DNA of 36,578 nt from a virus: IMG/VR virus record IMGVR_UViG_3300008450_000166, positions 1 to 36,578 of that record, one strand, 5' to 3'. Below are positions 17,328-28,173 of the stretch, in pieces. The position numbers and the translations under genes are program-made. The notes under the pieces were generated by a model that did no database searches, was not told the origin of the DNA, and saw nothing but the letters and a program-made list of their open reading frames with translations. The stretch's first letter is position 1. Each line of letters begins with the position of its first letter.

Positions 17328-18521
17328 ATGAAATTTAAAGGTATAAACGCCAAACATATTTTTGATGCGACCGACAACAAAGCAGTTGGTCACATTTATG
17401 TTTATGGTGACATCTACCATGCACAGCAAGCCGATGCGAATGAGTGGGGCATTGTTTCTATGAAGACGGTGCTTGACCAGATTCAATCGCAGCCAGACGC
17501 AAAAGAATTCATTGTACATATCCACAGCAGAGGCGGTGATGTAAACGAAGGTTTCGCAATTCATGACGCGCTCGTATCATCTGGAAAGAAAATCACAACC
17601 CATGTTGAGGGCTTGTGCGCCAGCATTGCGACCGTAATCGCTCTTGCTGGCTCTGAAAGGAAAATGAATAAGAACTCGGATTTCTTTATTCACAACCCGT
17701 GGGGCGACCCTTTCATGATGAATGGATTTACTGCCGATGATTATGAAAAGCGTGCAGAACAAATCAGACAAGCAGAAACAAAGTTGCTTGACTTTTATGT
17801 TGCAAAGACTGGCGCAGATGCTGGTCAGTTATCTGCAATGATGAAAGAAGAAACCACGCTCACAGCCGACCAAGCGTTGGAAATGAAATTCATCACAGAG
17901 GTTGTTGATACAATCAATGCTGTTGCGAAACTCGGAAAAACACAAACCCAAAATAAAGAAGACATGACAAAAGTTGCACGGGCAATTTCTTTCCTTGACG
18001 GATTGAAAGCCTTTCTCAATGGTGAGTCACAAACCTCACCCACACTTGCGTTGAAAATGACGCTGAAAGACGGAACTGAAATTGAAGTTGAAACAGAAGG
18101 GAATGACATTGCCGTTGATGATGTTGTTACAATCAATGGCGAGCCTGCACCAGATGGCGAGCATGAATTGTCTGACGGACGCAAAATCACTACCGCTGGC
18201 GGTAAGGTTACTGAAATTAAACCAGCCGAAACCACAGAAGAAGGAAGCGAAAGCAATGAAGAAACAGAAGCATTGCAAGCGCAAATCAATCAACTGACCG
18301 AAGAAAACAATACACTCCGCACGCAGAATCAGGAACTTCAAAACAACATGAATACAATCATGGACAAGGTGAAGAGCCTCGAAGCACTTGCAAAGAAAAC
18401 TGGAAGCACCTTTACTCCAGAAAACCGCGACTTCAATCGTCAGAAAGGCGGAGCAGATGAATCTGTTGAAGCAAGGATTGCAAGAAGGAAAGCAGAAGCA
18501 GCACAAAACAAACCCAAATAA
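17328..18521 (+). CDS. ClpP-type prohead protease fused to scaffold
   Basis: 397 residues. Residues 1-200 are an S14 (ClpP-like) peptidase: GDI near 27, HSRGGDVNEG (66-75), nucleophile S99 in GLCASIA, and H122 in FIHNPWG. Residues 213-397 are acidic and end in a coiled coil (about 315-355) and a basic tail, typical of capsid scaffolds. The protease matures the prohead and digests the scaffold. An internal in-frame ATG at 17964, preceded by AAAGAAG, could give a separate 185-residue scaffold, as in lambda C/Nu3. It lies just upstream of the capsid genes. Confidence 0.9.
   Translation: MKFKGINAKHIFDATDNKAVGHIYVYGDIYHAQQADANEWGIVSMKTVLDQIQSQPDAKEFIVHIHSRGGDVNEGFAIHDALVSSGKKITTHVEGLCASIATVIALAGSERKMNKNSDFFIHNPWGDPFMMNGFTADDYEKRAEQIRQAETKLLDFYVAKTGADAGQLSAMMKEETTLTADQALEMKFITEVVDTINAVAKLGKTQTQNKEDMTKVARAISFLDGLKAFLNGESQTSPTLALKMTLKDGTEIEVETEGNDIAVDDVVTINGEPAPDGEHELSDGRKITTAGGKVTEIKPAETTEEGSESNEETEALQAQINQLTEENNTLRTQNQELQNNMNTIMDKVKSLEALAKKTGSTFTPENRDFNRQKGGADESVEARIARRKAEAAQNKPK
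17964..18521 (+). CDS. possible nested scaffold protein (internal start)
   Basis: Codon 213 of the protease gene is an ATG preceded by AAAGAAG at a suitable distance. Translation from it gives the scaffold half alone (185 residues: an acidic domain, then a coiled coil with LTEENNTLRTQNQELQNN, then an Arg/Lys-rich end). Nested scaffolds of this layout are known from lambda Nu3. Use of the internal start is inferred. Confidence 0.4.
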   Translation: MTKVARAISFLDGLKAFLNGESQTSPTLALKMTLKDGTEIEVETEGNDIAVDDVVTINGEPAPDGEHELSDGRKITTAGGKVTEIKPAETTEEGSESNEETEALQAQINQLTEENNTLRTQNQELQNNMNTIMDKVKSLEALAKKTGSTFTPENRDFNRQKGGADESVEARIARRKAEAAQNKPK

Positions 18522-18537
18522 AAATTCCTGCACGAAA

Positions 18538-18936
18538 ATGAAAAAGTTATTCCTTATCGCGTTTCTGACAATGTTCGCAGTAACATCTCAGGCGCAACTA
18601 CGAAATGTAAAAAACTCTGTTGGCGTTGTGAAGAGCGATGCTGCTGGAGCAGACACAATCAACATCACTCCTTCGGCATACGAAACAATCGTGTTTCAGA
18701 CTATGACCGATTCTGTTCACTACAAAGTGAAAAGCAGCGCACAATCAATCAAAGGCGACAAACTTGTGTTTGTTGTTACTGGTGCAAGCGGTAATAAATT
18801 CAGAACCATTCCAGCATCAGGACTGAAAACAACTGGAGCCGACAGCCTTGTTACTATTGGAACAGCAGGGAGGGCAACATTGTCATTCATATTTGACGGA
18901 AGGGATTTTATTCAAACTGGAATCATAAAACTTTAA
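18538..18936 (+). CDS. signal-peptide-bearing head-associated protein
   Basis: 132 residues from ATG 18538; the frame is open further upstream but overlaps the scaffold. The start MKKLFLIAFLTMFAVTSQA with Q next is a standard Bacteroidota signal peptide. The remainder is beta-rich and ends ATLSFIFDGRDFIQTGI, an ending I associate with small fibre or decoration domains. It sits between scaffold and major capsid protein, where decoration proteins are common. Why it carries an export signal is unclear. Function unknown. Confidence 0.7.
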   Translation: MKKLFLIAFLTMFAVTSQAQLRNVKNSVGVVKSDAAGADTINITPSAYETIVFQTMTDSVHYKVKSSAQSIKGDKLVFVVTGASGNKFRTIPASGLKTTGADSLVTIGTAGRATLSFIFDGRDFIQTGIIKL

Positions 18937-18958: not shown

Positions 18959-20161
18959 ATGAAAACACTCACTATCACAAAAACCCTGCTCGCAATCGTA
19001 GCCACGATTTTCATGAGCGCAATGATTTCAGTTGCTACTGGAATCAACCCTGCAATTGCAATCGCATTCGGCTTGACTGGTTCTGTAATTCTCGGAGCAT
19101 TCACCAATGGATATGCCTTTGATTTGATTACTGGTACTCCGATTACCTTCAACGGAAAAGAAGCACGCGATGGTATCATTGAGCCTGCATACTCTTCACC
19201 CGAACTGAATGAGTTTATGACCATTGTTGAAGATGTTGTTGCCAAAGAACAAATTGCGTTTCTTGGTCGCATCACAAAGGTTACTCAGAAGGATGCTGGT
19301 TGCGGAAGCGGTGCGCTGAATAAGACCATACCAATGACAGAAAAGTTCTGGGAGCCTGAGAAGGTAAAGTTCTGGCTGACTCAGTGCGCTGACGACCTTG
19401 AAAATACATTTTATGTATGGGGATTGTCAAAAGGAATCGAAAGAAAAGACCTGACCAAAGGCGACTTCATTGATTTCGTAATGGACATTCTGACTACGAC
19501 CGTTAAAGAAGATGCTTTGCGTTTGCTCTGGTTCGGTGACAAATCTGCCGACACAATCGCAAACGGCTCTTTCTTGGGTTCTGCTGGCGATATTCCTTTC
19601 TACGATGCAATTGATGGTTTCTGGAAACAAATCTTTGATGCCGTTACCGCAACTACAATGCAGCGTGTGACCATTTCTGCAAACGCTGGCGTGAACTACG
19701 CAGCACAAGCACTTGCTGCTGGAGCATCGCTGACCATATTCAGAGGACTGATGGAAGGTGCTGACAGCCGACTGAAATCAGAACCGAACAAGGTTATTCT
19801 TTGCACAACTTCAATCTGGGAAAACTGGTTGACCTACAAGGAATCTCAAAACCTTGACATGAGTTTCGTGCGTCAGGAAAAAGGATTCCAGACAGATGTT
19901 TACAGAGGTGTAAAAATCTACTGCGTTGATTTCTGGGATAGGAACATTGACTCTGACATGAACGATGGAACTGCATGGGTAATGCCACACCGCGCAATCA
20001 TGACCACAAAAGCAAATCTGATGGCTGGCTTTGATGCAAGCAGCAAAGTTGCTGAGATTGATGCGTTTCTTGACAAGACCACCGAAATCAATCACATGAA
20101 AGGTGGTTACAAAGTTGACGCGAAAATCGTGTTTGACTTCATGACAATCGCAGCATACTAA
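18959..20161 (+). CDS. major capsid protein with hydrophobic N-terminal extension
   Basis: 400 residues, following protease/scaffold and preceding a tail-tube-like gene, the place of an HK97-fold capsid protein. Residues 8-26 and 31-48 are two hydrophobic segments resembling membrane spans (LLAIVATIFMSAMISVATG and AIAIAFGLTGSVILGAF). The rest is a soluble alpha/beta protein with an early helix-rich part (ELNEFMTIVEDVVAKEQ) and a late region with IMTTKANLMAGFD and EIDAFLDKTTE, as in Bacteroidota phage capsids. The hydrophobic part may be a pro-region removed by the protease or a lipid or membrane anchor. The start is the first ATG. Confidence 0.8.
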   Translation: MKTLTITKTLLAIVATIFMSAMISVATGINPAIAIAFGLTGSVILGAFTNGYAFDLITGTPITFNGKEARDGIIEPAYSSPELNEFMTIVEDVVAKEQIAFLGRITKVTQKDAGCGSGALNKTIPMTEKFWEPEKVKFWLTQCADDLENTFYVWGLSKGIERKDLTKGDFIDFVMDILTTTVKEDALRLLWFGDKSADTIANGSFLGSAGDIPFYDAIDGFWKQIFDAVTATTMQRVTISANAGVNYAAQALAAGASLTIFRGLMEGADSRLKSEPNKVILCTTSIWENWLTYKESQNLDMSFVRQEKGFQTDVYRGVKIYCVDFWDRNIDSDMNDGTAWVMPHRAIMTTKANLMAGFDASSKVAEIDAFLDKTTEINHMKGGYKVDAKIVFDFMTIAAY

Positions 20162-20183: not shown

Positions 20184-20786
20184 ATGAAGAACAAATTTCA
20201 TAATATCCAACTCATGCCTGCGTGCGGATTGATTAATGGCGGTATCGCTGTTAATTGTACTCCGAAACTCGTAGGCGGTGCAAACGACAGACTCATTCTC
20301 ATCAACTTTGATGACATTGAATCGCTTACTCCCGATGGCGTGAATCCAAACCTTTACACAGCAATAAACCTTGCTGCCACGAAAGTTGGTTATGTGTTTG
20401 AAGGAAAGCAGCAGTCTGTTGAACCGAGCCACTCACTTGTGAAAACAAGGTACTCAATCGGACACGACCACATCGTTCAGTTCAAAGTATTCAACAACGG
20501 ACCCGATGTAAAACTTCAACTTGACAAGATGGTTGAAGGTCGTTTCCTCGCAATCGTTGAAAACAACTTCAAAGGAACAGACGGTGACGCTGCATTTGAA
20601 CTCTACGGAGTTGACGCAGGGCTTTATGTTGAAGTCATGGAGCGAAATGTTGCTGACGCAGAAACACTCGGTGCATACAATATTCAGTTGAAGTCTGGTG
20701 AATTCGGAAAAGAAGGTCATGTGCCTTCCTCACTCTGGGATACCGACTACGCAACTACAAAAGCACTTGTGGACGCATTGCTTTGA
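20184..20786 (+). CDS. putative major tail (tube) protein
   Basis: 200 residues, soluble, beta-rich, no signal. The block DKMVEGRFLAIVENNFKGTDGDAAFELYGVDAGL followed by NIQLKSGEFGKEGHVPSSLW and TDYATTKALVDALL looks like a conserved tube-type domain found after capsid genes of Bacteroidota phages. An exceptional Shine-Dalgarno precedes it, suited to a protein needed in many copies. A terminator follows. A head-decoration role is the main alternative. Confidence 0.55.
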   Translation: MKNKFHNIQLMPACGLINGGIAVNCTPKLVGGANDRLILINFDDIESLTPDGVNPNLYTAINLAATKVGYVFEGKQQSVEPSHSLVKTRYSIGHDHIVQFKVFNNGPDVKLQLDKMVEGRFLAIVENNFKGTDGDAAFELYGVDAGLYVEVMERNVADAETLGAYNIQLKSGEFGKEGHVPSSLWDTDYATTKALVDALL

Positions 20787-20873: not shown

Positions 20874-21455
20874 ATGATGAACGAAGCAGAAAAAACAGAA
20901 CTGGTGAGCGCAGCAATGGAAATCAGGTACAATGACCTGAGTGACCCAAAAGCAGTTGACACGCTCGCAAAGACAATCAAGTTACTATTCGGAACTGACA
21001 TTTGCAAAACTTGCAAGGGCGACATTCTGAATGCTTACTACAAACTTGGTTCACACTTTCAAAACGAAGCCCTATTCAAAACAAAGAAAATGAAATCAAA
21101 GTACATCCTTCACGACAAAGTGGTTCTGTTTGAACCGAACACGCAGAATGTTTTTACAAACAAGAACCTCACCGATGCAGATGCAGAAAGAATACTGGCG
21201 AACTATCCTGCGTTTGCAAAGCGTTTCAAGTTCATTCCAGAGCAGCCAGTTGCCGTAAGCACCGTAGAAAAAAGCGATGATGTAAAACTGAATGAAGCAG
21301 TCGAGTATATTGATTCAGTAAAAACAAAAGCAGAACTCATTTCCGTTTGCGAGCAGAACGGATTTCCAGCAGAGGAATGGAGCAAGTACAATTTTCTGAA
21401 ATTGAAAAAGTACATAAAAACAAAACTCAATGAAATCAACAATAGCCCAAATTGA
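20874..21455 (+). CDS. hypothetical protein in head-connector region
   Basis: 193 residues (ATG 20874; ATG 20877 also possible). An N-terminal helical part contains a CKTCKGD motif (about 43-49), the middle is basic, and the last 60 residues form a helical pair ending KAELISVCEQNGFPAEEWSK, similar in feel to SAP/HeH-type helical hairpins. It is the first gene after a strong promoter and overlaps the portal gene by 26 bases, so it may be a connector or chaperone, but I recognise no family. Confidence 0.65.
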   Translation: MMNEAEKTELVSAAMEIRYNDLSDPKAVDTLAKTIKLLFGTDICKTCKGDILNAYYKLGSHFQNEALFKTKKMKSKYILHDKVVLFEPNTQNVFTNKNLTDADAERILANYPAFAKRFKFIPEQPVAVSTVEKSDDVKLNEAVEYIDSVKTKAELISVCEQNGFPAEEWSKYNFLKLKKYIKTKLNEINNSPN

Positions 21456-22797
21456 GTCGCGAATTGAGTTAAAGAATGACAACTCGCAAGGCATCATTAA
21501 ATATGATGTTGACAACGCATATCCGCAAAGAGTGCGTTTGCTTGTTGAAGGAAGCGGAACGGCATCAGCGTGCGTAAAATTATTCGGCAAATATATTCGA
21601 GGACTCGGATTTCAAGAGCCAACATTCTACTCATCAATTTGCAATACAAAGCGTTGGACATTTGACCGATTACTGAAATCGGTTTCAGATGATTACGCAA
21701 TGTTCGGAGGCTTTGCAATTCATGTGAACTACAATTCATTGCTTGAAATTTCAGAGATGAATTATGTTCCGTTTGAGTTCGTGAGGCTTTGCATTCCTGA
21801 CGATACTGGTTATGTGTCGAAGGTAAAAGTGTACAACGACTGGGGAAAGAAACTCGGTTCGCGCATTGATGAAAACAAGATGCACGAAATAAACATTTTC
21901 AATCCAGACCCAGAAGTAGTGCTGAAACAAATTGAAGCAGCAGAAGGAATTGACAAATATAAAGGTCAGGTGATGTACTTCACAAATGACGCAGACACAT
22001 ATCCGCTTGCGCCAGTTGATTCAATTTACGAAGATGTGCAAACGGATGGCGAGTTGAAACATTACAACAATAGGAATGTGACGACTGGTTTCATGCCACA
22101 AGTAATCTGGTCAACGAAAGGAAAGTTCGAGGATAAAAAAGACCTTGAAGAGCATCTGGAAAACATAAAAGCATTTCAAGGGGTTCGCAATGGAGCAAAG
22201 GTCATTCACCTTGAAATTGAAAGCGATGAAGAAGTGCCAAACATACAGCAGATAAAAAATGAAATCAACGACAAGTTGTTTGAGCATACCGAGCAATCGG
22301 TTCGCGAAAACATCATTAGGTGTTTCATGATTCCAAACATTCTGCTCGGTGTATCAACACCAAATGCGCTCGGAGAAAAGAATGACCGAGAAGGCGCAAA
22401 GAATGTTTATTCCGACATCACGAAAGACGAGCGTATTGTTATGGAAGCGGTGTTTGCGGTTATGTTTGAAAGGTGGCACAAACAAGAGGACAACCCGACA
22501 AAGAACTTTTCAATACAGCCAATACAAGGAGTTCCGCAAACAATCAACGCTGAGTTATACAAAGACATGACGCTGAACGAAAGGCGACAAATGCTGTTGA
22601 ATTTACCAGCGCAGCAAGAACAACAAGCAGCGACAAAGTTGTTGGTCGAAACTCTCGGAGTTGGAGGAACACAAGCATTGCAGACAATATTGGTTGACCA
22701 ATTCCTTACACCGCAACAGAAAAGAGCGACACTCAGGCTTGTATTCGGTTTCACAGAAGATGAAGCATTGCAGTTAATACCCGAAACAAATGGATGA
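21430..22797 (+). CDS. portal protein
   Basis: 455 residues, usual for portals. After a short lead it reads SACVKLFGKYIRGLGF (about 47-62), then a beta-rich wing (AMFGGFAIHVNYN), then the helical stem with NIRCFMIPNILLGVSTPNALGEKNDREGA-type residues and a C-terminal crown ending LVFGFTEDEALQLIPE. Portals form the dodecameric DNA channel and the terminase dock. Here it follows the capsid genes, whereas the usual order is terminase-portal-protease-capsid. Confidence 0.88.
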   Translation: MKSTIAQIESRIELKNDNSQGIIKYDVDNAYPQRVRLLVEGSGTASACVKLFGKYIRGLGFQEPTFYSSICNTKRWTFDRLLKSVSDDYAMFGGFAIHVNYNSLLEISEMNYVPFEFVRLCIPDDTGYVSKVKVYNDWGKKLGSRIDENKMHEINIFNPDPEVVLKQIEAAEGIDKYKGQVMYFTNDADTYPLAPVDSIYEDVQTDGELKHYNNRNVTTGFMPQVIWSTKGKFEDKKDLEEHLENIKAFQGVRNGAKVIHLEIESDEEVPNIQQIKNEINDKLFEHTEQSVRENIIRCFMIPNILLGVSTPNALGEKNDREGAKNVYSDITKDERIVMEAVFAVMFERWHKQEDNPTKNFSIQPIQGVPQTINAELYKDMTLNERRQMLLNLPAQQEQQAATKLLVETLGVGGTQALQTILVDQFLTPQQKRATLRLVFGFTEDEALQLIPETNG

Positions 22798-27473: not shown

Positions 27474-27643
27474 AAAAAGCATGGTACAAATCTCGCGCAA
27501 TGTGGGCTGGCTATTTGCTGGTCGTGTTCGGAATCATTCATTACTGGAAGACAGAAAACCTTTCGGCATCAATGGAACTCGTGTTGATGGGGCTTGGCTT
27601 CATCGGGGTTCGTAGTGCCATTGGTAAATCAATTAAGGGATGA
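27470..27643 (+). CDS. 57-residue two-segment membrane protein, holin-like
   Basis: Starts at ATG 27470 inside the previous stop (ATGA) and ends TGA 27641-27643, overlapping the spanin start. After MKKAWYKSRAMW come a hydrophobic stretch AGYLLVVFGIIHYW and a second one, MELVLMGLGFIGV, then a Lys end. Two short TM segments with a Lys-rich N-terminus suit a small holin. Tight overlaps on both sides strongly support that it is a real gene. Confidence 0.75.
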   Translation: MKKAWYKSRAMWAGYLLVVFGIIHYWKTENLSASMELVLMGLGFIGVRSAIGKSIKG

Positions 27644-28173
27644 AATTGATAAATGCGTTTGCATTTATAGTTATTGCGTTTGCATTCACTTCGTGTTGCC
27701 CGAAAGTGTTGCAGACCGAACAAACAACCAGTCGCGTCACAACATCGGACACAATCTACCTGAGAGATACGATTGAAATTCCGACTGCGACTGCGACTGG
27801 CTTGTTTGATTCCGCTAAATTCATGACAATATGTGACAGCATATTGCTTTTGAAGTCAGGACAAGGCATAGAAATCACAAACACAGAAACAAACACAGAA
27901 ACAAAATCAGTTCCGCGCATCCAGACAATTAAAATTGTAAAGGATACGGCTGGCTTTTTCAGAATTCAAGCCGACATTTCAAGTTACATGGCGGAAATTG
28001 ATTCGCTCCGCAAGGTGATAACAACAAAGGATTCAGTTAGCACCATTACAACAAAGATTATCGCCAAGTGCGTCAGCAAATTTCACCGATTTACGCGGAC
28101 ATTTTTCTGGTTATTTTTAGCCCTATTTTTAGGGTATATTTTGGCGAAAATCGGAGGCTTGAAATTGCCCTAA
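27640..28173 (+). CDS. unimolecular spanin (lipoprotein with C-terminal TM)
   Basis: 177 residues. The N-terminus MKLINAFAFIVIAFAFTSC ends in a lipobox-like AFTSC (Cys19, second Cys next), so it should be a lipoprotein. The middle is a soluble, helix-prone periplasmic span, and residues about 152-170 form a C-terminal TM segment (FFWLFLALFLGYILAKI). A lipoprotein anchored in the outer membrane and inserted in the inner membrane by its C-terminus is the u-spanin architecture, as in T1 gp11. It is last in the lysis cassette. The first bases encode two ATGCGTTTGCAT-type words (27653-27664, 27675-27685). Confidence 0.75.
   Translation: MKLINAFAFIVIAFAFTSCCPKVLQTEQTTSRVTTSDTIYLRDTIEIPTATATGLFDSAKFMTICDSILLLKSGQGIEITNTETNTETKSVPRIQTIKIVKDTAGFFRIQADISSYMAEIDSLRKVITTKDSVSTITTKIIAKCVSKFHRFTRTFFWLFLALFLGYILAKIGGLKLP

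Follow-up and report, generated by a model that had tools for sequence, protein, structure and literature searches.

To our knowledge, the assembly site of tailed phages and the block on premature polymerisation of their abundant proteins are poorly known beyond a few models, such as T4. Among described capsids, those of HK97 (gp5), T5 and SPN3US (gp75), which carry an N-terminal delta domain or propeptide, have in common with the locus analyzed here the capsid fold, an extension before the mature body and a head protease encoded nearby. The extension reported here differs from theirs in being short and hydrophobic instead of coiled-coil, in being absent from most of its own protein family and subject to a putative cleavage, and in that a probably related leader also sits on a tail protein. 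Signal-peptide-like N-termini on phage capsids are already known from the Porphyromonas gingivalis 'Nixviridae' prophages, where the capsid proteins have predicted signal peptides with proposed prohead-protease cleavage and where Q-rule secreted proteins are also reported (PMC10367356). Compared by description, these too are MCPs (major capsid proteins) of Bacteroidota phages with a hydrophobic N-terminus, but the accessible part of that account mentions neither a two-span hairpin nor tail-tube leaders, and the literature searched, which was covered in part, yielded no case of a leader shared by capsid and tail tube.

The window, that is, the whole stretch of 36,578 nucleotides of viral DNA that was analyzed (IMG/VR record IMGVR_UViG_3300008450_000166), contains the following head genes:

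17328..18521, + strand: ClpP-related (S14) head maturation protease (phrog_94, E 1e-49; CLP_protease, E 1.5e-23; NF045542)
18959-20161, + strand: MCP ORF, 400 aa, leader and HK97-fold body in one frame
18959..19123, + strand: two-span hydrophobic leader, MCP residues 1-55 (hydropathy, absence in relatives, profile, codon usage)
19124..20161, + strand: MCP body, residues 56-400 (family alignment, AF2, Foldseek against the PDB, phrog_38780)
21430..22797, + strand: portal protein (phrog_11226, E 4e-80)

The capsid identity assigned to ORF 18959-20161 in a preliminary description made from the sequence was right. The AF2 model, built with 64 family members as input, has an HK97-type body (pLDDT 84.8), and a Foldseek search against the PDB returned the phiRSA1 mature capsid at the top (E 2e-11) within a group of capsids from phiRSA1, DT57C, T5 and HK97, all matched with E values from 2e-11 to 3e-8. 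The protein matches phrog_38780 (E 7.6e-36), a PHROG of unknown function that thereby gains a likely name, MCP. The placing of the gene, with the head protease and the portal protein nearby, is typical of an HK97-fold MCP, and a DUF6712 protein is also encoded downstream. On the basis of the model, the product is an HK97-fold MCP.

The leader peptide, MKTLTITKTLLAIVATIFMSAMISVATGINPAIAIAFGLTGSVILGAFTNGYAFD, is in frame with the capsid body. The two N-terminal hydrophobic segments noticed earlier were recovered as Kyte-Doolittle peaks (17-residue sliding window) at residues 10-26 (2.41) and 32-48 (2.08), with no others in the whole MCP. Structure prediction, suggested at the time as a check, gave two helices in the leader (residues 3-27 and 31-45), forming a hairpin that is detached from the separate HK97-type body by a low-confidence, disordered linker. 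By their hydropathy, the two segments are predicted membrane spans.

Relatives were sought with the whole window MCP as query, and their starts were read from the DNA upstream of each match. They almost always matched from residue 56 onward, and 116 of the 119 distinct MCPs start 0-8 residues ahead of the body (residue ~54-56 of the window MCP). Only the window and contigs L070 and L072 have a hydrophobic extension, of ~50-55 residues (3/119), no part of which overlaps the conserved capsid body; at this frequency it is not a family-conserved scaffold of the kind represented by the HK97 delta domain. The preliminary description had spoken of an extra N-terminal region, perhaps a pro-region or a membrane-targeting one, and had proposed aligning it with related capsids. 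The alignment places the beginning of the body at about residue 56, and the idea of an extra region fits well because the extension stops exactly where the MCPs of the relatives begin. Residues 1-55 form a genuine leader, joined in frame where the ancestral HK97-fold MCP had its start codon. As most relatives have no leader and assemble without one, it is not required for the HK97-type fold. L001 and L002, the closest relatives (68-69% identical), have the end of the protease gene directly ahead of the capsid start; by comparison, both the leader and a small gene at 18538 that lies between protease and MCP in the window are extra. The leader-bearing MCPs nearest to that of the window are only about 35% identical to it, and no close relative carries the leader of the window. 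Such a leader was found neither in PF05065-type capsids of Bacteroidales genomes nor in the structural genes examined in the isolated phages BS-TP3, phi46:1, BV57P1, BC422P2, BU183P1, BU3-1, B40-8 and B124-14. An origin of the leader as an assembly error was considered and rejected, as leaders recur in independent contigs. Two further capsid genes (L046:240-1340 and L071:4977-6068) begin with 8 basic or hydrophobic residues ahead of the body (MKKIILLA, MKKLLKRG), which may be what is left of a leader.

The ClpP-type protease invoked in the preliminary description is present at 17328-18521, where NF045542 (head maturation protease) scores 126.3 bits against a cut-off of 120. Its C-terminal part includes a coiled-coil region (about residues 300-360) that is likely a fused scaffold; replacement of the scaffold by the leader was therefore rejected, since the protease keeps this region. 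The leader is rare and leaderless relatives have the same kind of protease, which therefore did not arise to serve the leader.

The gene that follows the MCP gave a second view of such leaders:

20184..20786, + strand: predicted major tail tube protein, 200 aa, gene after the MCP (AF2, VIA-align)

Its AF2 model (pLDDT 89.8) was aligned by VIA-align with lambda gpV and the Mu tube at Z ~8 (8.2), and tail tube proteins made up the greater part of its hits. A Foldseek search returned nothing below E 0.001, so the naming is based on VIA-align. The model points to a major tail tube protein with a lambda gpV-like fold, and phrog_21217, a family of unknown function that includes this product, gains that as a likely name. 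In the window, this protein has an extra 10-residue, non-hydrophobic start (MKNKFHNIQL), with AAAAGGAGG upstream. Two or three similar genes stand in a row in phi46:1 and several Bacteroides phages. On the other hand, in 10 other contigs the tail tube protein has an N-terminal two-TM leader of its own, of ~53-65 residues:

L050, L074, L075, L076, L077, L079, L085, L210, L221, L223: contigs with a tail-tube leader

The capsids of these contigs are leaderless among those whose start was read. The tail tube proteins of the related IMG/VR phages L079, L221 and L223, of the lambda gpV fold, apparently bear the same leader module as the window MCP, with the difference that it sits on the tail tube and not on the capsid. 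The design common to this type of leader consists of a positively charged start, a first span, a short loop (often TG[IL]xP), a second span and a junction G-x-[AS]-[FLM]; where leader and body meet, most of the proteins have M, L or F at the position of the ancestral start Met, frequently as part of this junction motif. In L072, whose capsid is also leader-bearing, the tail tube protein (L072:6280-6909) begins with 16 extra, mildly hydrophobic residues.

The relationship between the capsid leader and the tail-tube leaders was examined with an HMM built from eight tail-tube leaders, with 48 real two-TM N-termini and 1000 shuffles as controls. The window MCP leader scored 19.9 bits (E about 4e-5), compared with 13.6 bits for the best of the 48 controls, three of which, the highest-scoring, came from loci picked by a related profile and make this ceiling if anything too high; none of the 1000 shuffles reached the window leader. 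Each of two disjoint training subsets ranked the window leader over all controls (9.6 vs 8.4 and 12.6 vs 9.1). The capsid leaders of L070 and L072 could not be separated from the two-TM controls by this HMM and may be convergent with that of the window. From these profile scores, the window MCP leader and the tail-tube leaders probably belong to a single module, convergence being the alternative, and the match implies a portable module carried by one or other of the two virion proteins that are most abundant. Together with the shorter starts of 116 of the 119 MCPs, the match also places the window extension beyond chance. Searches for other occurrences with the leader alone gave nothing by tblastn against GenBank phages or in a scan of IMG/VR, to which low-complexity filtering may contribute, and only insignificant matches against PHROG. 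Across 296 Bacteroidota genomes the leader profile had only weak hits, best E 0.003, of the sort that membrane proteins give, and it is therefore unusable as a detector. A search of the gaps between the MCP and tail-tube genes turned up no standalone two-TM gene and hence no source of the leader.

The reading that we favor, for which we judge the arguments evenly balanced, is that the MCP leader is a transient membrane anchor on a portable module, cut off near residue 54-56. With two spans and a charged N-terminus, the leader would form a hairpin with both ends cytosolic (N-in/C-in), so that by the positive-inside rule the body would stay in the cytosol yet remain attached to the inner membrane. 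With one span only, the body would be exported; the hairpin would instead act as an anchor at the cytosolic face and not as an export signal. The abundant MCP could in this way be held at the inner membrane, on its cytosolic side, which would delay or locate assembly, and the leader would then be removed at the junction near residue 54-56, keeping hydrophobic pieces out of the shell. Such removal seems likely because hundreds of hairpins would hardly fit a finished shell and because the attachment sites are the exact ancestral starts of the capsid and tail tube proteins. We infer each of membrane insertion, topology, cleavage and the responsible protease. In a broader and more tentative form, it is possible, though we would not lean towards it, that an exchangeable membrane-hairpin leader, on capsid or tail tube, serves some Bacteroidota siphophages as a mobile assembly-localisation module, which tethers assembly to the inner membrane until proteolysis releases it. 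If true, the movement of a short removable membrane anchor from capsid to tail tube genes or back would offer a natural experiment on both assembly site and premature polymerisation.

A clearly less probable explanation, and the best of the alternatives, makes the leader a plain assembly pro-region of the HK97 delta-domain kind. It would occupy the prohead lumen until the phage ClpP-type protease cuts it off there, and its hydrophobicity would serve subunit packing and not a membrane. The head protease encoded two genes upstream is consistent with this, as is the prohead-protease cleavage proposed for Porphyromonas phage capsids with signal-peptide-like starts (PMC10367356). However, that protease, which leaderless relatives have as well, already includes a scaffold-like coiled-coil region, and the same kind of module occurs on tail tube proteins, which do not assemble in proheads. 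This argues for a role of the module beyond the prohead interior, and because tails are not built in the prohead, where head proteases normally act, the pro-region envisaged in the preliminary description is insufficient if it means prohead-internal processing alone.

Cleavage by a host signal peptidase or another membrane protease was also considered. The leader would in this case be a decoy, or a leaky signal for export, taken from the gene of a secreted protein such as the neighboring one at 18538. Neighbors of this type are:

18538..18936, + strand: small signal-peptide protein between protease and MCP (Bacteroidota Q rule, MKKLFLIAFLTMFAVTSQA followed by Q)
L080:6073-6489, L099:1150-1608, L100:1969-2394, L115:6064-6675, L128:715-1332: Q-rule signal-peptide proteins between capsid and tail tube genes

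When the genes surrounding the capsid were scanned without restriction, hydrophobic leaders turned up at the N-termini of the capsid, the tail tube protein and the adjoining Q-rule proteins; the remaining cases were a few distant genes of lipoprotein-like or signal-peptide type. The signal peptide of the 18538-18936 product, which has a weak match to phrog_15797, ends in TSQA before the Q. The Q-rule proteins of L080, L099 and L100 are distantly related, those of L115 and L128 are 54% identical, and none of the five clearly matches the 18538 protein. Their adjacency to MCP or tail-tube genes in several relatives would suit a capture, and by reading the sequence, S-V-A↓T after the first span of the MCP leader looks like a signal peptidase site. 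Nevertheless, hydropathy and AF2 predict a second span after the first, where a Sec signal peptide would have a single hydrophobic helix, then the cleavage site and an exported body; the 18538 signal peptide and the MCP leader are different sequences, and exporting a capsid protein would be unproductive. We regard a captured export signal as improbable.

To a similar degree we doubt that a recent neutral fusion joined an upstream stretch to the gene, which was then tolerated without function. Its sporadic occurrence among the MCPs would be expected of such a fusion, and in six related tail-tube genes the leader is under weak constraint (dN/dS 0.38, compared with 0.043 for the body), neither part having stops or indels. 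This pattern also fits a translated part that would need mainly a property such as hydrophobicity, and a functionless stretch accounts poorly for the recurrence of similar two-span leaders precisely at the N-termini of two distinct, abundant virion proteins or for a frame kept open in ten contigs.

The preliminary description had named as its own refutation a true start beyond residue 55, with the upstream part a separate gene, and this was tested by a scan of start codons and by codon usage. The first 100 codons of the ORF contain in-frame starts at ATG1, ATG19, ATG22, TTG39, TTG56 and ATG87. The last falls within the conserved MCP body and would remove residues 56-86, which are conserved in relatives, leaving TTG56 as the sole possible downstream start. 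The codon usage of the leader (0.246) is like that of the genes of the window (0.27 +/- 0.09). Given the positions of the start codons and the gene-like codons, a downstream start is unlikely, and from the sequence the leader is very probably translated. Translation from TTG56, with the upstream part a small separate or leader peptide accidentally open in the ORF, can be set aside as highly improbable: the codon coincides with the point where the MCPs of relatives begin, but nearly all of these have an ATG directly before the body, TTG56 lacks the A-rich context seen at ATG1 ahead of the gene-like codons, no stop separates leader from body, and the canonical start is lost in other leader-bearing genes too.

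Upstream of the head protease, the leader-bearing phages have methyltransferase-like and glycosyltransferase-like genes (L070:1282-3093; L072:1-3215; names judged from sequence), and similar genes are also found in L032 and L221. Elsewhere in the window, the product of 27640-28173 has a lipoprotein-like start (MKLINAFAFIVIAFAFTSC) and is a candidate spanin component.
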